A stretch of 36,738 nt of DNA from Deltaproteobacteria bacterium (GTDB taxonomy: Bacteria; Myxococcota_A; Polyangia; JAAYKL01): positions 1 through 36,738 of the forward strand of contig JAFGQN010000218.1 in NCBI GenBank assembly GCA_016935665.1. Reading direction: 5' to 3'. A program made the position numbers and the translations under genes. Shown here one piece after another: positions 28,442-36,738 of the stretch. The notes under the pieces were generated by a model. The model ran no database searches and was not told where the DNA came from. It saw only the letters and a program-made list of their open reading frames with translations. Every line of letters starts with the position of its first letter. The stretch's first letter is position 1.

Positions 28442-28615
28442 GAGACCTCCTTCAAAACACAGTTTCTATACCTAATACGAGAATTCCCGCCCCTGTCGAC
28501 CCGGCATCCCCTGTTTCCCCCCAGGAAATCAGAATTTTACTGTCACTGAAATCACGAATTCAAATCCACTCTTGCCAAGGCAACCGCTTTATTATAATAA
28601 GCTTCTTCTCATTCA

Positions 28616-28689
28616 GCACCCATAGCTCAGCTGGATAGAGCATCGGTTTCCTAAACCGGGGGTCGCAGGTTCGAGTCCTGCTGGGTGCG
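28616..28689 (+). tRNA. tRNA-Arg (anticodon CCU)
   Basis: A complete cloverleaf can be drawn: 7-bp acceptor stem GCACCCA/TGGGTGC, D arm GCTC...GAGC, anticodon stem TCGGT/ACCGG with loop TTCCTAA (anticodon CCT, reads AGG), five-base variable loop GGGTC and T arm GCAGG-TTCGAGT-CCTGC. The discriminator base is G; CC follows but the A of CCA is not encoded. It marks the boundary between housekeeping-type genes and the accessory island to its right, a common integration target, although no duplicate of its 3' end was found in the window. Confidence 0.95.
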
Positions 28690-28693
28690 CCGT

Positions 28694-28721
28694 CTGAAAA
28701 CCGAGCAAGCTCGGTTTTCAG
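28694..28721 (+). repeat. Perfect 13-bp inverted repeat just after the tRNA
   Basis: CTGAAAACCGAGC and its reverse complement are separated by two bases, effectively a 12-bp stem with a CAAG tetraloop. It sits five bases after the tRNA. It may act as a terminator or processing stem, but no T-run follows it on either side, so a mobile palindromic element is an alternative. Confidence 0.6.
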
Positions 28722-28732
28722 GCCAAGCGGCA

Positions 28733-28758
28733 GCTTATTTTGCGCCCGCAAAATGAGC
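28733..28758 (+). repeat. Second hairpin after the tRNA
   Basis: GCTTATTTTGCG and CGCAAAATGAGC form a 12-position stem with one T-G wobble and a two-base spacer. It is flanked by direct copies of GCGGCAG (about 28728 and 28762). Together with the preceding stem it forms a double-hairpin block. The rest of the gap to 28994 shows nothing else. Confidence 0.55.
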
Positions 28759-28994
28759 GAGAGCGGCAGACCAGTAAGTAATTGTTAAAGCTCTTATACC
28801 CGTAAGCCACCGTAAGATAATGGCCGAAACGGCTGGTCTCAACAGACAGGAAGTGCAATGGCACCATCGGTTTTCAATACAGATAATAAACCAAAATCTT
28901 ATGATGAACCTTCGTTCGGGACTCAGGCGTACTGAATTTTCAACCAGACAGGTAACATGTTGTTGTTGTTAAGATGTTCTGATAATGATTAGTC

Positions 28995-30050
28995 ATGACT
29001 CTTCAATCAAGCATAAATCAACTCTGTGATAAGTGGGGTCTGAATCTGGATCATATTGATCGGGCGCAGAAAGACTCCGATGAGACTGTTGTGGAGTTGG
29101 AAAAACGGCTTTGCGACATAAATCCGCGCAACGACACAAGTATTGTAGTATTTGGCTCTCTTGCCAGAGGTGAGTTTAGCGCGAAAAGTGATATTGATTG
29201 GACACTTTTAATTGACGGCGCTGCAGACAGCAACCACTTAGAGACTGTTTTGGAAATCGGAAGAATCGTTGATGAAGTCGCGGGTAAGTCACCGGGGCAG
29301 GAAGGCGTCTTCGGCAATTTAACGTTCAGCCACGAGTTGATTCATCTGATTGGTGGTCAGGATGATACCAACTTCAATACGACACAGCGCAATCTGCTGC
29401 TACTTGAATCGAAGGTTATTGGAGATTCGGCAGCGCACAAAAGAACGATACGAAATATTCTTAATCGATACATATTGGAAGATACGTCCTACGGCGATCA
29501 TTCAACATACGACCACGTACCTCGATTCCTTCTCAACGATTTTGCGAGATACTGGCGCACAATGGCGGTGGATTTTGCCTACAAACGCCGAAGACGACAA
29601 CAGGCAGGCGCTGCGTTGCGAAATATAAAACTTAGAATGTCTCGAAAGCTGTTGTATGTCACTGGATTGATTTCGTGTTTTGGATGCGAACTCGGGTTAT
29701 GTTTCAATACTGAGAATAAGAATTGTCCAGTGGAAAATTGCATTAGAGGAATGGAGCGCCTCATTTCGTTCTCTCCACTCGAGATATTGGCGCAAACGGT
29801 TTTGAAGATAAGCCCGGAACGACAAGATGTCCTTGCGGGACTTTTCGAGTCCTACAACGATTTTATCGGGCTATTGCAGGATAAAGACGCCCGCAACATT
29901 CTTAATAATTTGACTCCGGACCAGTATGCTGAGAATTCGGTATTTCAGGATGCCAGAAGAAACTCCCATCGATTTCGAGATGGCCTTGATCATTTGTTTT
30001 TTGAAGTTGAACCGCTTAAAACCCTGACGCGAAAATATGGTGTATTTTAA
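28995..30050 (+). CDS. Nucleotidyltransferase-fold protein (accessory island)
   Basis: Product of 351 aa. The DNA-polymerase-beta-type nucleotidyltransferase signature is clear: VFGSLARGEFSAKSDIDWTLLIDG, with Gly-Ser at 54-55 and the metal-binding acids Asp66 and Asp68. The third acidic residue cannot be placed with certainty. The remaining 230 residues are mostly helical and basic in the middle (YKRRRRQQAGAALRNIKLRM), perhaps for nucleic-acid or nucleotide binding, with an F-N-T-E-N-K-N-C-P-V-E-N-C stretch. It does not look like a typical AbiEii toxin, a CBASS cyclase of a class I know, or a two-domain tRNA enzyme. The ATG lacks a good ribosome binding site. Its stop TAA shares a base with the ATG of the next gene, so the two products are made together. 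Substrate unknown. Confidence 0.75.
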   Translation: MTLQSSINQLCDKWGLNLDHIDRAQKDSDETVVELEKRLCDINPRNDTSIVVFGSLARGEFSAKSDIDWTLLIDGAADSNHLETVLEIGRIVDEVAGKSPGQEGVFGNLTFSHELIHLIGGQDDTNFNTTQRNLLLLESKVIGDSAAHKRTIRNILNRYILEDTSYGDHSTYDHVPRFLLNDFARYWRTMAVDFAYKRRRRQQAGAALRNIKLRMSRKLLYVTGLISCFGCELGLCFNTENKNCPVENCIRGMERLISFSPLEILAQTVLKISPERQDVLAGLFESYNDFIGLLQDKDARNILNNLTPDQYAENSVFQDARRNSHRFRDGLDHLFFEVEPLKTLTRKYGVF

Positions 30051-30802
30051 TGAGAAAAATAGGTTTTTCAACGGGCGCATTGGCGCTATCGAATTTTGAA
30101 CTGGCTATTCAATATATGAAGGACGCACCGCTACAGTTTGATGCAGTGGAAATATCGGCGTTGCGCGTTCACGAACTGGCGCCGCTAATCGCCTGGCTGG
30201 AGCGGGTTGATTTCTGTCTCCCTTTTGGCAGTGTGGTGATTCATGCGCCAAGTGTCATGAACACGAAAGAGGAACTCGAAGTTGCTGATTTACTGCATAA
30301 GGTTCACGAAAGACAATTGCCAATTGTTCTACACGCCGATGCGTATCACAACGCCGCAATCTGGCGGCAATTTGATGATGGATTGCTGATTGAAAATATG
30401 GATAAGCGGAAACCCGGTGGTCGCACCGCAGATGAACTGGATATCGTTTTTGATGAATTGCCAGATGCCGCCCTTTGCTTTGATATTGGCCATGCCAGGC
30501 AAATAGACCCCACAATGATTGAAGCATCGGAAATACTCAAAAGGCATGGGCAACGTCTTAAGCAAATCCACCTCAGCGAAGTTACCTGTGGCAGCAAACA
30601 TGTTCCTTTGTCGTATACATCAATCGTTGCAGTTCGATCTATTGCTCAGTTAATACCAATCGATATCCCGATTATTCTGGAAGCGCAGGTTGAACCCACA
30701 CAAATGCTTTCGGAAGTCCAGCGCGCTGAAGAAGCATTGAATGCATTTTCAGAAACAGATGCGCAATGGCGCAATGCGATCCATGGACGGGTCGTCGCAT
30801 AG
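30050..30802 (+). CDS. AP-endonuclease-2-type TIM-barrel protein
   Basis: Product of 250 aa, a single TIM barrel of the xylose-isomerase-like/AP endonuclease 2 superfamily. Strand ends carry the expected metal ligands: His65 (VVIHAPS), His95 (IVLHADAY), Glu115 (LLIENMD), Asp145 and His148 (CFDIGHARQ), His174 (QIHLSEV), His184 and Glu211 (IILEAQV). This is the pattern of a di- or trimetal site as in endonuclease IV, so catalysis on a phosphate ester or sugar is likely. Which substrate (abasic DNA, sugar phosphate or a nucleotide product of its partner) is open. The ATG overlaps the stop of the nucleotidyltransferase gene by one base (TAATG). It converges with the AbiEi-like gene. Confidence 0.8.
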   Translation: MRKIGFSTGALALSNFELAIQYMKDAPLQFDAVEISALRVHELAPLIAWLERVDFCLPFGSVVIHAPSVMNTKEELEVADLLHKVHERQLPIVLHADAYHNAAIWRQFDDGLLIENMDKRKPGGRTADELDIVFDELPDAALCFDIGHARQIDPTMIEASEILKRHGQRLKQIHLSEVTCGSKHVPLSYTSIVAVRSIAQLIPIDIPIILEAQVEPTQMLSEVQRAEEALNAFSETDAQWRNAIHGRVVA

Positions 30803-30894
30803 TTTTTCGTTCCAGCCTTCTGTTCGCCCAAACGACCAAAGTAAACCAGCCGGAGGCTTGCCCCGGGGTTCCAGTTTTTCAAACGGATGATCGG

Positions 30895-31449
30895 TCACTG
30901 ACGTGCCTCCAATAGTTGTTTAAGTATTTCAAGTTCAGGGGCTGAAACCCTGCCCAGGTGCGCGGCGGTTTCGATGCTCTGGCGAATCAGGTGAGTAGGA
31001 ACGGCGCCACGGATTGCCTGTTCAATGGCTTTGGCTGGGGTCACAATTGGTATGCCTTCGTGCCAGCCTTTGTCTTTTTCATCCAGGTTCTCTTTATGGA
31101 GAACGTAGTTCTCGCCACCCTTGCGATTGACTCTGTATCCGGCCGGTACCACGATATGCACTTTTTCAGGGTTCACATCACATAGCGTATGCAGCTCCAA
31201 CGCCGTATCGTAACCCAGCACCCCATGCCGCGATGGCCACAACGTTGCCAGCATGTACGAATCAAGCTCTGTCGCCGGTATCTGCAAAAACCGATAAATC
31301 CCATGCCCCCGCCGTTCAATTTTCCCCGCCTGGTGCCATTGCCGAAGCCGCACCGGATCGGCATCCATATCACGCATATCATCAAACGTGATGAATCCAT
31401 ATTGATCCAACGCAACTTCAAAAGCTTGTTCCCATACTCGACCCGGCAT
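30895..31449 (-). CDS. AbiEi-family protein (type IV antitoxin/transcription factor), no toxin adjacent
   Basis: Product of 184 aa from the ATG at 31449. It has the AbiEi layout: an N-terminal winged-helix (FEVALDQYGFITFDDMRDM, RLRQWHQAGKIERRGHGIYRF), then IPATELDSYMLATLWPSRHGVLGYDTALELH, and a C-terminal part with HIVVPAGYRVNRK and IVTPAKAIEQAI. Members usually repress their own operon with an AbiEii nucleotidyltransferase toxin immediately downstream. Here nothing follows on the same strand, because the next gene converges. The start codon touches a perfect inverted repeat. It is divergent from the Gabija-like pair, so it may act as a regulator. An upstream in-frame extension to 31593 lacks family character. 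Confidence 0.82.
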   Translation of the reverse strand: MPGRVWEQAFEVALDQYGFITFDDMRDMDADPVRLRQWHQAGKIERRGHGIYRFLQIPATELDSYMLATLWPSRHGVLGYDTALELHTLCDVNPEKVHIVVPAGYRVNRKGGENYVLHKENLDEKDKGWHEGIPIVTPAKAIEQAIRGAVPTHLIRQSIETAAHLGRVSAPELEILKQLLEARQ

Positions 31450-31482
31450 GCAAATACCGTATGAAAAAAATACGGTATTTGC
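31450..31482 (-). promoter_or_regulatory. 12-bp perfect inverted repeat touching the AbiEi start codon
   Basis: GCAAATACCGTA and TACGGTATTTGC are separated by nine bases. The repeat ends exactly at the ATG of the AbiEi-like gene. It is a likely operator for autoregulation; as RNA it would form a hairpin against the start codon. A possible -35-like TTGCAA overlaps its far arm, which would make the transcript nearly leaderless. Confidence 0.6.
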
Positions 31483-31573
31483 AAGTTTTTGGTTTTGAGA
31501 ATGTTGAAAATCGTTGGGATTTCGTAACAGCCAGCGATACGTTCCACCAATTCCAGACAACTTTCCACAATAA

Positions 31574-31587
31574 TTTTCAATTGAAAA
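31574..31587. promoter_or_regulatory. 14-bp palindrome between the divergent AbiEi and GajA genes
   Basis: TTTTCAATTGAAAA is a perfect palindrome in the 209-bp divergent region, about 13 bp upstream of the candidate -35 box for the Gabija-like operon. A protein-binding site is plausible. Confidence 0.4.
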
Positions 31588-31599
31588 CGACAACTTTCA

Positions 31600-31628
31600 T
31601 TGGTCATTTCTTCCGCAACCCGTAAATT
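31600..31628 (+). promoter_or_regulatory. Candidate promoter of the Gabija-like operon
   Basis: TTGGTC (-35, 31600-31605) and TAAATT (-10, 31623-31628) have a 17-bp spacer; each matches the sigma-70 consensus at four of six positions. Transcription would begin about 25 bp before the ATG at 31659. Confidence 0.35.
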
Positions 31629-31658
31629 TATGAAAACCCAATTTGCAATGAGGTATTT

Positions 31659-33380
31659 ATGCCTGCGATCCGTCACCTGATAATCAGAAATTTTCGCGCG
31701 ATAAAAGAGTTCATGTGGTACCCAAATCCCGGACTGAACTGTTTAATCGGGCCAGGAGACTCTGGGAAATCAACAGTTTTGGACGCCATAGATGTTGTTT
31801 TGGGCGCAAGACGTTCAATCACGTTCAATGATGCTGATTTTAACTGTGGCAACATTTCTCAGCCGATTGAAATACTTGCAACAATAGGGGCACTGGAAGA
31901 CGAACTACAGAATTTTGAATACTACGGAAATGTTCTTCGGGGATTCAATTTACAGGACAGGACAATATTCGATGAACCTCAGCATGGTTTGGAGACGGTT
32001 TTAACTGTACGGCTCCGAGTAGGTGCGGATTTGGAACCTGATTGGACGCTTTTCTCCGAACGCTCAGATACAGCAGGACAAGAATATCGATTGAAATGGA
32101 AACATCGTATAATTGTTTCCCCAAACCGTTTAGGGGTGATGTCATACAATCATCTAACTTGGGGGTCTGGTTCTGTATTGCCGCGACTTTCAACTGACGG
32201 CATTGAGACTGGAGAGACCTTAGCTGCCGTGAGCCGCATTGCGCGAAGTGCTTTCCCTTCGCCTGTCCCTCCAAACATTCAGGAAACAATTAATAAGGTT
32301 CAAAGTGTTGCGGACGACATGGCAGTTGCTGCTCATGGGGTAAAGGCGGCTTTGGATCCCAAAGCCGTTGCGTTATCAAATGGCGCGATTAGCTTACATG
32401 ATAACAACGGTACACCTCTTCGTCAGTTAGGAACCGGTTCGACTCGTCTACTTGTAAGTGGTCTGCAGAAATTGGCTTCGGAATCATCCATGCTGTTAGT
32501 TGATGAGGCAGAGTACGGTCTTGAGCCATTCAGAATTTCAAAATTTTTACATGAACTTGGCGCAAAAAATGTGCATTCAGGTAAGCAGGTGTTCATTACA
32601 ACGCATTCGCCCCATGTATTGCGAGAACTTCAAGTACATCAACTGCATGTTCTTCGCAAAGCAGAAGTGCCCTTTGAGCCGCCGTGGAGTCAATACTCTC
32701 ACTGGGCATACACGGCCAATGCCAATGATAGTCAAGCGCAAGCAACACTGCGCGCATGCGCCGAAGCATTCTTTTCAAAAAAAGTTATTGTGGCCGAAGG
32801 AAAGACGGAGATTGGATTGGTGCGCGGCATTGACATGTTCGAAGAGTCGCAGAATCGACAAAGTTTGCTTTCGAACGGTGCATTTTGTGCCGACGGTGGA
32901 GGGTCAAAGTTGTTTGAACGAGCGATGGTTTTTGCCCAATTTGGTTATCCAACGGCTATATTTAAAGATTCTGACATATCAACGCAGCATACCAATTCCA
33001 CAGCGCTGGCAACGAAGCAGGGGATTCAAATAATAGAGTGGGGTCATGGTTGGGCAACCGAAGAGGCTTTGTTTAATTGCTGTCCGGAGTCGTTGATTTT
33101 AGAGCTTTTGGATTTGGCTGTAGACCGTAACTCGGCGGACGCAATTGACACACATATTCGCAATTCATCAAACCACAGTTACGACTTGAATAAATGCAAA
33201 GCGAGTTTTGAAGAGCCGATGCGAGGTTGTCTTGCGTCAAGCGCTAAAAAGTACGGTTGGTACAAAGATATTGAACCTGCAGAATATATAGCCCTCAATG
33301 TCATTGGACCAAACCGGAATACCTTCAAAAAAGAATTGATCGCTGTGATTGATAGTTTGTTTCAATGGGCAAAATCATAA
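31659..33380 (+). CDS. gajA: Gabija-like GajA: OLD-family ATPase/TOPRIM nuclease
   Basis: Product of 573 aa, close to the known GajA length (about 578). GAGG lies five bases before the ATG. The N-terminal ABC-type ATPase has Walker A GPGDSGKST (31-39), a degenerate signature LGTGSTRLL (257-265), Walker B SMLLVDEAEYGLEP (277-290) and the switch His in FITTHSP. The C-terminal TOPRIM domain has the catalytic Glu in VIVAEGKTE (Glu380) and the D-x-D pair in AIFKDSD (437-439). GajA nicks DNA at preferred sequences and is held inactive by nucleotides until phage activity depletes them (known for B. cereus Gabija). The gajB-like gene follows after nine bases. OLD-type nucleases also pair with other partners, so the name rests on the combination. 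Confidence 0.85.
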   Translation: MPAIRHLIIRNFRAIKEFMWYPNPGLNCLIGPGDSGKSTVLDAIDVVLGARRSITFNDADFNCGNISQPIEILATIGALEDELQNFEYYGNVLRGFNLQDRTIFDEPQHGLETVLTVRLRVGADLEPDWTLFSERSDTAGQEYRLKWKHRIIVSPNRLGVMSYNHLTWGSGSVLPRLSTDGIETGETLAAVSRIARSAFPSPVPPNIQETINKVQSVADDMAVAAHGVKAALDPKAVALSNGAISLHDNNGTPLRQLGTGSTRLLVSGLQKLASESSMLLVDEAEYGLEPFRISKFLHELGAKNVHSGKQVFITTHSPHVLRELQVHQLHVLRKAEVPFEPPWSQYSHWAYTANANDSQAQATLRACAEAFFSKKVIVAEGKTEIGLVRGIDMFEESQNRQSLLSNGAFCADGGGSKLFERAMVFAQFGYPTAIFKDSDISTQHTNSTALATKQGIQIIEWGHGWATEEALFNCCPESLILELLDLAVDRNSADAIDTHIRNSSNHSYDLNKCKASFEEPMRGCLASSAKKYGWYKDIEPAEYIALNVIGPNRNTFKKELIAVIDSLFQWAKS

Positions 33381-33389
33381 GGGGACGAT

Positions 33390-34814
33390 GTGCCAGTTGA
33401 TGCTGTTTTAAAAACTTGGCGTGGTTCTGTGGTTGCTCCTGCAGGTTGTGGTAAGACTCATCTGATTACCGAAATCGCCAAACGTGCTGATGGTGGTAAG
33501 CCCTTTTTAGTATTGACGCATACGACTGCCGGTGTGGCTTCGCTAAAGAAAAAACTGCACAAGTATAACGTCCCTAACGCAAACATTTCTGTGTCTACAA
33601 TTGACGGATGGGCGATGAGTGTCGCAAAGAAGTTCCCCCATGGGTGTCCTCTGAAGGCATCGCCAACGAACACGCAAATTTTTTACCCCGAACTGAGAAA
33701 TGTTGTTAGCAAATTCTTACAAGGGGGGCATATCGACGGAATTATTCGATCGACCTATTCACGACTATTGGTCGATGAATACCAAGACACAGGTTTAGAA
33801 CAACACAGCATAGTTCTATGTCTCTCGAATTTATTGCCAACAACGGTTTTCGGAGATCCAATGCAATCAATTTTTGATTTTGGCGGCCCTCTCCCCAGCT
33901 GGAATGAAGTCCAAAGTGTGTTTCCAGAGGTGTTGGCTCTAAATACTCCGTGGCGGTGGAACAACGCTGGACAATGTGGTTTAGGAAATTGGATTCTGAA
34001 TGTTCGTGCGGAATTAGAGAATCGGCGTTCAATCAATCTACAGACTTGTCCCAATAATGTCTTCTGGTATCCTCTTTCCGGGAGCGAGCGGGATGATTTG
34101 ACGAATCAAACCAAAGTTCTATTTGACTTGCGAATTAAGGGTTCCGAGACTGATTCCATTTTGGTTATTGGCTCCTCAATGGAAGCAAATACAAGGCACA
34201 AATTCGCGAGAAACTCCAGAGGGGTACATGTTGTCGAACCGGTCGATTTAAAAGACATGATCGCAGCTTCAAAACGACTGGACGGTATTTTAGGTCGTGA
34301 ACTTGTGGAATGTACACTGGATATCGCTTCTAAATTGATGACAGGTACTGAAAAGAAAAAAGTGATGACTCGTCTTGATACCATTCTGGCAGGAAGGCAC
34401 AGGGCTGAGCCGACGGCGGTCGAAATCGTGGCCTGCGCTGTTGTCAGACAGTCCTGCCGCAAATCTTTGCTGGAGCTATGGGAGACTCTGGCGAAGAAAG
34501 AAGGTGTGAGATTGTATAGAGGCCCTGTCTATTCTGCTTTTAAGGAAACATTGAGGCTGGCTGCCAGCGATGGACAAAAAAGCATTGAAGAATGTGCATC
34601 GATCGTTAGAGAACGGCGAAGGCACTACGGCGACCGTCGAATCCCGCAATTTGCTGTTGGCTCAACTCTCCTTTTAAAAGGATTGGAGGCAGATCATGTA
34701 TTGATCCTTAATGCTGATGAAATGAATAGGAAACATCTTTATGTGGCTTTGTCCAGAGGGGCAAAGAGCGTGACGGTGTTTTCTCGGACTGCGGTAGTTG
34801 GCGTGCAAATGTGA
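33390..34814 (+). CDS. gajB: Gabija-like GajB: UvrD/Rep-type superfamily 1 helicase
   Basis: Product of 474 aa (known GajB about 494). AAGGGGA lies shortly before a GTG start at 33390, nine bases after the gajA stop. Motif I is VAPAGCGKTHL (Walker A, 16-23); motif II is LLVDEYQDTG (Walker B), motif III VFGDPMQSIFDF, and PWRW is the motif IV-region Arg. Near the C-terminus, VGSTLLLKGLEADHVLI and HLYVALSRGAKSV are motifs V and VI. The large 1B/2B insertions of full-length UvrD are absent, as in GajB. GajB is thought to sense DNA ends or single-stranded termini and activate GajA in one complex. All helicase motifs look intact. Confidence 0.85.
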   Translation: MPVDAVLKTWRGSVVAPAGCGKTHLITEIAKRADGGKPFLVLTHTTAGVASLKKKLHKYNVPNANISVSTIDGWAMSVAKKFPHGCPLKASPTNTQIFYPELRNVVSKFLQGGHIDGIIRSTYSRLLVDEYQDTGLEQHSIVLCLSNLLPTTVFGDPMQSIFDFGGPLPSWNEVQSVFPEVLALNTPWRWNNAGQCGLGNWILNVRAELENRRSINLQTCPNNVFWYPLSGSERDDLTNQTKVLFDLRIKGSETDSILVIGSSMEANTRHKFARNSRGVHVVEPVDLKDMIAASKRLDGILGRELVECTLDIASKLMTGTEKKKVMTRLDTILAGRHRAEPTAVEIVACAVVRQSCRKSLLELWETLAKKEGVRLYRGPVYSAFKETLRLAASDGQKSIEECASIVRERRRHYGDRRIPQFAVGSTLLLKGLEADHVLILNADEMNRKHLYVALSRGAKSVTVFSRTAVVGVQM

Positions 34815-35069
34815 CTGCGATATATTTTCTTCGAGGTACTTATAAACGCTTGAAGATGGAATTTATGATTGCGAGACTTTGAAAAACTCGATGCTGGTTA
34901 TTAAGATACGTGGCGAGCATTGCAATGTTGACTTCTCGCCGAACAAGGGGAGATCAGATTAAACAGGATATCGATTCTCTGACTCGAAAATATCAACGAT
35001 TTCGTAAATTATATGCTCGCAGATCCGGTATTATTTCCTATGCTTGTTTTGATACAATGACTCCAAGTT

Positions 35070-35831
35070 TCATCTGCATATACCCCCGTTACATTGCCTT
35101 GATATGCAATCGGCATTGTTGCCACATGGCTGACCGGCGGGACGACGCGGTGCACAAACATTGCCAATACAGGCATTGATGCATTGACCGTCTCGGTCAC
35201 ATGGTGCTCCATCCTCGCCATTTGCCGTTACGCATACATTGTCATTTCGACAACGTTGGCCATCGGCGCACTGAGAGTCTGCATTGCATCCACATACACC
35301 ACCGTTGCACAAACGTGATACGCAGTCTGCATTGTTGCCGCAAGATTGCCCCGGAGCACGCCTTGGTGCACAAACGTTGCCAATACAGGCGTTAATGCAC
35401 TGGCCGTCCCGATCGCATGGTGCTCCATCCTCGCCATTTGCCGTTACACAGACATTGTCACTTCGACAACGTTGACCTGTGCGACAATGGGAATCGACGC
35501 GACAAAAACCACACTGATTCTCAACACAGTTTTTTCCTGTTGGACAATCTCGGTTTTGAGTACATTCCACCCATTGACAACCAAGACGGCTGCAAATAGA
35601 TGAGTTAGAAAGGCTGCTACAGGTAAACTTCCCGTTACAATAGAAACCACCTCCATCAGTAAATTCTGGTGTGCAGGGTTTAACACAGTCTTTTAAATCG
35701 GTGATAATTTGTGACGAACAAGACCTTTGCCCTTCGCCGATGCATTTTCCAGTTCCGCCATTGCATTTGCCTGCGCTAATAAAAACAAACGTCAATAGCA
35801 TGACAACAAAATACTGATTTTTTTTCATCAT
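35070..35831 (-). CDS. Secreted Cys-rich protein with internal duplication
   Basis: Product of 253 aa from the first of two tandem ATGs at 35831, with AAAGGAAG upstream. A signal peptide (YFVVMLLTFVFISAGKC) is followed directly by Cys-rich sequence; the Cys after SAGK could be a weak lipobox. Cysteines recur in the pattern of Dickkopf-type or myxococcal small Cys domains: NRDCPTGKNCVENQCGFC, SHCRTGQRC and CGNNADC. Two nearly identical 72-residue units (CVTANGEDGAPCDRDGQC, CIGNVCAPRR, GGVC or GGIC) follow each other at the C-terminus. Function unknown; likely extracellular and disulphide-bonded. It is the only gene of this surface-protein style in the island. Confidence 0.8.
   Translation of the reverse strand: MMKKNQYFVVMLLTFVFISAGKCNGGTGKCIGEGQRSCSSQIITDLKDCVKPCTPEFTDGGGFYCNGKFTCSSLSNSSICSRLGCQWVECTQNRDCPTGKNCVENQCGFCRVDSHCRTGQRCRSDNVCVTANGEDGAPCDRDGQCINACIGNVCAPRRAPGQSCGNNADCVSRLCNGGVCGCNADSQCADGQRCRNDNVCVTANGEDGAPCDRDGQCINACIGNVCAPRRPAGQPCGNNADCISRQCNGGICR
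35074..35471 (-). repeat. Two tandem copies of a 216-bp unit in the Cys-rich gene
   Basis: The copies are offset by exactly 216 bp (for example TTTGCCGTTA at 35221 and 35437 on the plus strand). They are most alike around the segments encoding GEDGAPCDRDGQCIN. Silent and a few coding differences show that the duplication is not brand new. Confidence 0.85.
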
Positions 35832-36560
35832 TAATTATGCTTCCTTTCTCAAATGAATTGCGATTACAGTTAATTGATGTTGGTATCGCATTGTGAAAAA
35901 AACTCGGGGACCTTTACATAACCCATTTATGGAGAATCCCTCCGTTTGCTTTTTCCATGAGGCGGTCGCTATGAAGGCTAAAATACTAATCTCTTTTTTC
36001 CATGTATTACACTGTATTGCTTGTATTGGAAAGCAAACCCAACAGAAGGTATGGGAAAAAATTGCTTTCTCTTCTGTCATTAGGCGAAGCATTTTTGTCC
36101 TTAGTTTTTGTTAATTGCCTTAAATACTTGAATGTAATCGATGGGACACTCATGGGGCACTTGCTCTCAACTTTTGCCAATAATCGGCAATAATGGGAGT
36201 AGTCATTTGATTGAGTATTCAACTGGGAGAGGAAGTCGTGGATTGACTGCGGTGGCTGCGCCATCCTCGTCGAGATGCTTGAAATCCGGCAGCTTCATGG
36301 ACTTGCGTCCATTGCGCCGTGCCGTATTGCCAAATCACCCCAAATCACCCCACCCCGGTTGTTTATTTTCATGCAGCAGGAAAAGCCAAAAATTTTTTCC
36401 GTGAGTTAAATCCGGTGATTCAATTCGAATGTTCTGTATGAAATACTGAGCGCATCAATACATCGAGCGAGGAACATACACCTCAGTTTCCAACAGAAGA
36501 TGCAGGAGTGCAAAACACGCGAGAGTTGCCATCAAATTATTTTTGTAAGCCCAGCTTCGT
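35832..36560. other. Long stretch without a supported gene
   Basis: Short frames on both strands occur, none with a convincing ribosome binding site and product. Two perfect direct copies of CAAATCACCC lie at 36331-36350. One minus-strand frame (KSMKLPDFKHLDEDGAAA, about 36200-36325) looks protein-like but is closed by stops at both ends; it may be a remnant of another element. Confidence 0.45.
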
Positions 36561-36737
36561 TTATGCTGACGACACCGACACACCCGAATGAATACGCATT
36601 GCATAAGTGCCCGCCGGAAACATGGCATCCCTTTTCCCTTCTTTCCACCGCTTCAACGCATCCCAGTACTGTGAGACAAAATATTTGTAACGACGTATTG
36701 CATTGATTCGCAGTTTTTTTTCAAGAGAGAAAAATCT
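36561..36737 (-). pseudogene. Transposase C-terminal fragment running off the window end
   Basis: The minus-strand frame enters from the window edge and ends at the stop 36563-36561. It reads YFVSQYWDALKRWKEGKRDAMFPAGTYAMRIH and so on, in two adjoining pieces: a Y-W-x-A-L-x-x-W-K helix and a V/M-F-P-A-G-T-Y-x-M-R-x-H segment. This is a C-terminal ending I associate with REP-associated/IS200-like or related putative transposases common in Myxococcota. About 58 residues are visible and the start lies outside. Family is by recall and moderately certain. Confidence 0.55.
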
Positions 36738-36738
36738 C

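Follow-up and report, generated by a model that had tools for sequence, protein, structure and literature searches.

Two genes that overlap by one base in the window, as we call the whole 36,738-nucleotide stretch of DNA analyzed here, form a conserved but non-obligate two-gene unit and are an already catalogued phage-defense candidate, PDC-M70. Gene A (28995-30050, plus strand) encodes a nucleotidyltransferase of 351 residues (PDC-M70A), which carries a GS...SDID motif and a helical C-terminal region and ends in YGVF. Gene B (30050-30802, plus strand) encodes a 250-residue TIM barrel (PDC-M70B) of the AP-endonuclease-2/endonuclease IV fold. The stop codon of A and the start codon of B have base 30050 in common within a TAATG junction (30048-30052, plus strand), and the overlapping pair of reading frames reported by the first-pass annotation is real. 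The observation is far above chance: both proteins give near-full-length matches to family models, and their order and overlap are repeated across phyla. On our tentative best reading, the pair would be a mobile module of adenylylation and de-adenylylation, probably directed against phage, an enzymology and a defense role that we infer.

Catalogue identity and genomic setting

In hmmscan searches of PADLOC-DB, A matches PDC-M70A (PDLC04778, E 7.6e-127; residues 4-351 on model positions 5-355 of 355) and B matches PDC-M70B (PDLC04779, E 9e-84; residues 1-235 on model positions 1-232 of 238). The one-base overlap gives the two genes the adjacency that belongs to the PDC-M70 definition. Since both genes are already named in PADLOC-DB 2.0.0 (2023), the earlier proposal of an undescribed module or system was rejected. 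According to the available part of PMC12988326, in which a preprint by Payne et al. (2024) is cited, PDCs were identified by guilt-by-embedding, and the majority of them are without experimental validation. A literature search on PDC-M70 and related phrases, judged from the search listings, yielded no paper recognized as dealing with its function or with phage protection.

The neighboring tRNA and Gabija-like locus of the first-pass annotation were both recovered. The tRNA-Arg(CCT) gene (28616-28691, plus strand) marks the left edge of an AT-richer stretch and is a possible integration site. GC content drops there from about 0.53 to 0.45, and third-position GC is 0.41-0.48 in A, B, and the AbiEi, GajA, and GajB genes, compared with 0.52-0.70 in the ten upstream genes measured. 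Between the pair and the Gabija genes lies an AbiEi-like gene (30895-31593, minus strand), beside which no AbiEii partner was seen. It is followed by adjacent genes for the Gabija ATPase/TOPRIM protein GajA (31659-33380, plus strand; E 8.7e-201) and the UvrD-like helicase GajB (33390-34814, plus strand; E 4.9e-163), which match the PADLOC-DB pair PDLC04168/PDLC04173.

The tRNA-Arg(CCT) locus was recovered in 9 of 12 genomes of the window's taxonomic family, and two of these nine loci carry a phage-type integrase (G365, L184) or a YhcG nuclease (G154, L189) downstream of the tRNA, a possible hot spot of integration within the family. Because of the GC drop at the tRNA and the integrase and YhcG genes behind the same tRNA in relatives, the region in the window is probably a genomic island linked to the tRNA. 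The contig stops at 36738, short of the right edge of the island; a search for integration repeats across 28500-36738 (seed 12, minimum 16 nt) found none touching the tRNA, and an empty-site search through the upstream rubredoxin-like gene in the 12 family genomes returned partial or distant matches with no usable flank. Two 194-nt direct repeats, 80% alike, were seen at 35068-35477, within a Cys-rich gene of 253 residues on the minus strand.

Specific defense genes are found near at least 5 of the 25 pairs examined: Gabija in the window, type III restriction-modification in L002, type I in L016, Bil and SIR2 in L017, and AbiEii in L018. Among the 19 Acidobacteriota pairs (L002-L010, L012-L016, L125-L129), a defense neighbor was noted for L002 and L016 alone, and the other 17 sit amid ordinary-looking genes, as judged by eye from the output of a home-made gene caller. 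A neighbor scan was made with 131 of 160 proteins from 24 loci, the window left out, and a control with 131 of 153 proteins from random regions; matches were reported by family, without assignment to a single locus. Among the matches listed for the pair neighbors (25 of 197 families) are PDC-S08 and mad3, with two members each, and UvrD-type GajB matches, and among those listed for the control regions (25 of 100 families) are UvrD, sigma-54-activator, and kinase types. Defense genes thus do occur near the pair, as the earlier annotation had led us to look for, while their enrichment there is suggestive only. Because PADLOC candidates are picked by neighborhood, proximity to defense genes is also no independent evidence.

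A lone B gene occurs within a defense locus. In G335 (L074:9586-10326, contig C608), a B gene that retains all eight metal ligands sits between DrmMI and DrmA of a DISARM locus and is read from the opposite strand. Three small genes alongside it have no PADLOC match.

Conservation, loss, and transfer of the pair

The 25 loci in which B follows A come from Acidobacteriota, Planctomycetota, the window's phylum, and rhizobial plasmids. In 19 of them, the A stop codon and the B start codon have exactly one base in common (TAATG or TGATG); the spacing is 0 to 2 in five and 89 in one (L009). When genome contigs were scanned for A, 15 loci were found (14 labeled as Acidobacteriota in their titles and one Planctomycetota), all with B behind A. 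Four plasmids have a match to A: the two closest, from Mesorhizobium and Sinorhizobium, carry the pair, and no match to B was found on the other two (E. coli and Rhizobium BT04, 30-33% identity). In the phylum of G379, a genome that carries the pair and is part of the count, 347 genomes yielded six with full-length A, each with B adjoining, and a seventh, G677, with a broken pair. The 377 genomes of the window's phylum include eight with full-length A, five with strong B, and three with both (hypergeometric p 6e-5); with the genome of the window removed, the counts are seven, four, and two of 376 (p 0.002).

In these counts, full-length A means E below 1e-120, which excludes from the carriers the weaker matches of 28 of the 36 matching genomes in the window's phylum and 22 of the 28 in the phylum of G379. 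G115, whose B is partial (E 1.8e-18), and G177, whose B matches at E 8.7e-4, are excluded from the B carriers, and the neighborhoods analyzed are those of the counted A carriers and of the broken pair in G677. The conserved adjacency and the co-occurrence that the first-pass annotation had proposed as checks are both present in other genomes and support a conserved two-gene unit.

The distance matrices of A and B are correlated (r 0.80 for 22 pairs), with 0 of 10000 permutations as high. This mirror-tree comparison used 22 of the 25 pairs and left out L014 and L015, in which A is interrupted, L016, in which a contig end cuts A, and the broken L130. The same four loci are absent from the A alignment (A1; 27 rows, each longer than 300 residues), and the B alignment (A2; 27 rows) omits the partial L076 and the broken L130. 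The pair is non-obligate because five genomes, four of them of one genus, have A without B (none at E 0.1), and two have B without full-length A. The five lone A genes are interspersed among paired ones in the A tree and, since they are nested there, B was probably lost in these genomes.

Looser arrangements were also seen. In the broken pair of G677 (L130:8984-10030), the frame past the B remnant runs into DNA-methylase-like sequence, as judged by eye. A Miltoncostaea plasmid (NZ_CP064357.1, L021:8079-8672) has a B-like gene of 30% identity, with no annotated nucleotidyltransferase near it within a 16.6-kb stretch. A lone nucleotidyltransferase with about 30% identity to A is encoded on a 4.5-kb E. 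coli plasmid (NZ_CP092257.1, L019:711-1706) and was found by megablast in 1 of 5426 E. coli genomes. In Rhizobium sp. BT04 (NZ_CP125653.1, L020:7941-9636), the gene behind a relative of A encodes a histidine phosphatase, and both lie in a sugar gene cluster.

G546 and G494 have in common a 2.9-kb stretch, 89% identical, that comprises A, B, and about 1 kb upstream (L125:8221-11123 and L126:8778-11663). It ends about 35 bases behind B, the 20-kb surroundings of the two copies show no further match, and gyrA adjoins one copy only. An extra open reading frame is called in the upstream part of each copy (L125:8484-9182, L126:10711-11532). In the A tree, the window is placed among six rows of which the other five are Acidobacteriota (95/95), and apart from the A genes found in other members of its class. 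This placement points to horizontal transfer of the window's A, on a long branch whose exact place is unsure and with a B tree that lacks resolution. A phage-borne module was rejected, since a search of 50,697 phage records gave no relative of A at E 1e-5, and a scan of viral contigs that detects close relatives only gave no B.

In 3 of 25 loci (L125:11358-14261, L127:5363-8035, L128:2-734), gyrA or a fragment from the 3' end of this gene is found no more than about 1 kb away from the pair, and two of these three pairs belong to one clade of the A tree. A DUF3800-like gene flanks the pair in two distant bacteria (L018:6696-7457, L127:8049-8810), one of the two genes scoring just above and the other just below the Pfam cut-off.

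Predicted chemistry of the two proteins

A is a pol-beta-type nucleotidyltransferase, as initially annotated, with a Pfam match to NTP_transf_2 (E 1.3e-7) and a G54-S55...D66-x-D68 motif that is invariant in 27 of 27 aligned sequences. D124 is likewise invariant and is a candidate third catalytic acid. The AlphaFold2 model (25 sequences; pLDDT 89.2) comprises an N-terminal nucleotidyltransferase domain and a long helical C-terminal part. Comparison of this model by VIA-align highlights DrrA as the best match (Z 14.7, rmsd 4.1, 258 aligned, 10% identity), with GlnE next (3k7d_B, Z 13.2, rmsd 4.5, 259 aligned; 1v4a, Z 13.0, rmsd 5.0, 264 aligned), scores of 13-15 being attainable by chance for models that are mostly helical. 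After a clear drop follow MntA (7bxo, Z 7.1) and aminoglycoside enzymes (6.7). The VIA-align lists for both proteins re-examine Foldseek matches, and families absent from them may still be related; Foldseek itself gave no PDB match to A at E 0.001 or better, the best being 2.5e-3.

Profile comparisons place A at a distance from GlnE, MntA, and aminoglycoside enzymes. Alignment of A with GlnE by hhalign (eight partly overlapping stretches of four GlnE proteins) gave a weak match, with a probability of 29% over 63 columns; PF03710 (GlnE) does not match A at E 1 and has no match in the window's genome. The best NCBIfam match is MntA (NF047752) at 21.8 of 60 bits, below the cut-off. Aminoglycoside ANT models reach 15 bits of 500 and 12.4 of 350, and Hailong HalB (NF051895) 12.7 bits with a cut-off of 190, all under threshold. 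We read A as a predicted adenylylating enzyme with a protein target favored, from a modeled fold whose likeness discriminates neither AMP from other nucleotides nor protein from small-molecule targets.

B has no Pfam match at E 1. The protein is modeled as a TIM barrel (mean pLDDT 92.3), which VIA-align superposes on endonuclease IV (3aam, Z 18.3, rmsd 3.4, 225 aligned; 1qum, Z 17.5, rmsd 3.3, 224 aligned) and, with a slightly higher score, on the sugar epimerase 3cqj (Z 20.1, rmsd 2.9, 226 aligned). The 50 Foldseek matches listed for B include isomerases, epimerases, other TIM barrels, and the UV-damage endonuclease 4gle; none of the 50 is endonuclease IV. For the comparison of metal sites, we used the residue numbering of the endonuclease IV metal set, which we take to comprise nine ligands. 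Residues H65, H95, E115, D145, H148, H174, H184, and E211 of B are invariant in 27 of 27 sequences, both lone B proteins included. The Asp position of the DRH motif is occupied by S, G, C, or N in all 27, hence eight of nine endonuclease-IV-like ligand positions are kept. The full set of ligands first attributed to B is to this extent present, with the DRH Asp replaced.

Endonuclease IV is also the sole PDB sequence match of the B profile, at E 0.18, which is not significant by itself. This match puts E115, D145, H148, H174, and H184 on metal ligands. Alignment with six Nfo proteins by hhalign (probability 93.6%) places E211 as well and disagrees on H184 and on H65, which falls on the His of HPGS; the assignment of H65 and H95 as ligands is by motif alone. 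TIGR00587 (endonuclease IV, Nfo) does not match B at E 1, and the window's genome has a separate Nfo on contig C43. The best NCBIfam match is the phosphodiesterase CbiR (NF041277), at 27.9 bits with a cut-off of 105. Epimerases are not known to have the extra His ligands expected of hydrolases. Because eight of nine ligand positions are kept in all 27 sequences, B is predicted to be a metal-dependent phosphodiesterase, which we favor over a sugar isomerase; a role as sugar isomerase only is disfavored by the ligand set.

Canonical housekeeping and resistance enzymes were rejected for A and B, since no Pfam or NCBIfam cut-off for such families is reached. Neither protein reaches any NCBIfam cut-off, and the match to a characterized family that the first-pass annotation regarded as fatal to its proposal did not emerge.

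Proposed mechanism, alternatives, and known systems

We tentatively regard the pair as a mobile two-gene writer and eraser, or writer and processor, of a nucleotide modification. In a first step, A would move a nucleoside monophosphate onto a hydroxyl, as suggested by its fold and motif, and the group moved is most likely AMP derived from ATP. The target may be cellular or phage and is most likely a protein, as with GlnE and DrrA. In a second step, B would act as a phosphodiesterase of the endonuclease-IV/CbiR type and cleave the phosphodiester made by A or a related one in nucleic acid, a reaction suggested by its metal site. It might in this way keep the modification made by A off in uninfected cells, or complete the attack. 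Attachment and removal of a nucleotide had been suggested at the outset, and this chemistry is plausible given that the nearest folds to A adenylylate proteins and that B has a hydrolase-type metal site.

A more specific version, a defense module in which a GlnE/DrrA-type enzyme marks a protein with AMP and a TIM-barrel de-AMPylase of the endonuclease IV type resets it, is improbable in that exact form. The available part of PMC12663964 describes RNase Z, a nuclease, as a deAMPylase, and a TIM-barrel eraser of the endonuclease IV type is not named among the deAMPylases in that part. If such a module did exist, the lone B in DISARM would be an eraser or effector recruited by another immune system, and reversible protein AMPylation would be added to the known immune chemistries.

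The alternative that survives best, although we consider it unlikely, is a small-molecule pair, in which A would attach a nucleotide to a sugar, antibiotic, or metabolite and B would isomerize or hydrolyze a related sugar phosphate. It agrees with sugar epimerases and isomerases as the best structural matches of B, with the annotation of one B as a sugar phosphate isomerase/epimerase, with the sugar genes and histidine phosphatase around the Rhizobium BT04 relative of A (33% identity, 61% of query), and with the 17 of 19 Acidobacteriota pairs for which no defense neighbor was noted. The extra His ligands that B retains are, however, those expected of hydrolases, A is far under the cut-offs for aminoglycoside enzymes, and the patchy spread and mobility of the pair fit conflict better than core metabolism.

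Also unlikely is a toxin-antitoxin system that works by modification, with B as nuclease toxin and A as adenylylating antitoxin. This would follow the logic of MntA-HepT (type VII), in which MntA adenylylates HepT according to the available part of PMC7641770, with a TIM barrel replacing HEPN. MntA is among the next structural matches of A and is its best, sub-threshold, NCBIfam match, and the coupling and overlap of the genes would suit such a system. Against this, the A fold is closer to GlnE and DrrA than to MntA, and each gene is also present without the other: A without B in five genomes, and B without full-length A in two, with eight ligands intact. Lone A and lone B genomes thus disfavor a strict toxin-antitoxin pair and weaken the toxin/neutralizer wiring proposed earlier, which is retained here as a rival only.

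Endonuclease IV works on DNA 3' ends, and A has a palm fold in common with terminal transferases, to which Foldseek gave weak matches. Both points would accord with a module that acts on nucleic-acid 3' ends, A extending the termini of tRNA or DNA and B trimming or repairing these termini. As matches to A, CutA and Cid1 stand far lower in rank than GlnE and DrrA, and we consider this reading improbable. Least probable of all is that A and B are independently useful and merely travel in one mobile cassette, since their constant order, overlap, and correlated divergence argue against it even though each is found alone, B once within DISARM.

The pair is catalogued, yet it lacks an explanation in the literature searched. 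To the writer-and-eraser reading, this analysis adds a testable chemistry, with an adenylylating writer and a metal phosphodiesterase eraser and the exact residues of each. It also adds the A-only and B-only genomes, which are natural evolutionary controls, the 2.9-kb mobile unit, and the B embedded in DISARM.

Among known systems, PDC-M70 consists of the same two genes, with near-whole-model matches for both and no model-level difference, and is known from its catalogue entry alone. The glutamine synthetase adenylyltransferase GlnE resembles A in fold over about 260 residues and in its G...SDxD motif. However, GlnE has two nucleotidyltransferase domains and a regulatory region, whereas A has one such domain, no PF03710 match at E 1, and weak profile similarity. 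The GlnE adenylylating-domain fold in A (Z 13.2 and 13.0) is a likeness of fold only, near the chance level of helical models. The AMPylase domain of DrrA/SidM is the best structural match of A (Z 14.7), but the identity is 10% and A is encoded with B.

MntA-HepT is also a small two-gene nucleotidyltransferase module. In contrast to B, which is a TIM barrel, HepT is a HEPN protein, and the MntA model has 106 positions, whereas A is about three times longer and falls below the MntA cut-off. CbiR and endonuclease IV, of the AP-endonuclease-2 superfamily, resemble B in their TIM barrel and His/Asp/Glu metal set; B scores 27.9 of 105 bits against CbiR and differs from endonuclease IV in the absence of the DRH Asp. 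The available part of PMC7733943 describes CbiR as a phosphodiesterase of this superfamily and reports phosphodiester chemistry in the CbiR and endonuclease IV families. In the available part of PMC12249575, SoFic is described as AMPylating its targets during abortive infection, a precedent for AMPylation in immunity. If A is an AMPylase, the pair would have defense by AMPylation in common with SoFic, which uses a Fic fold and a different partner.
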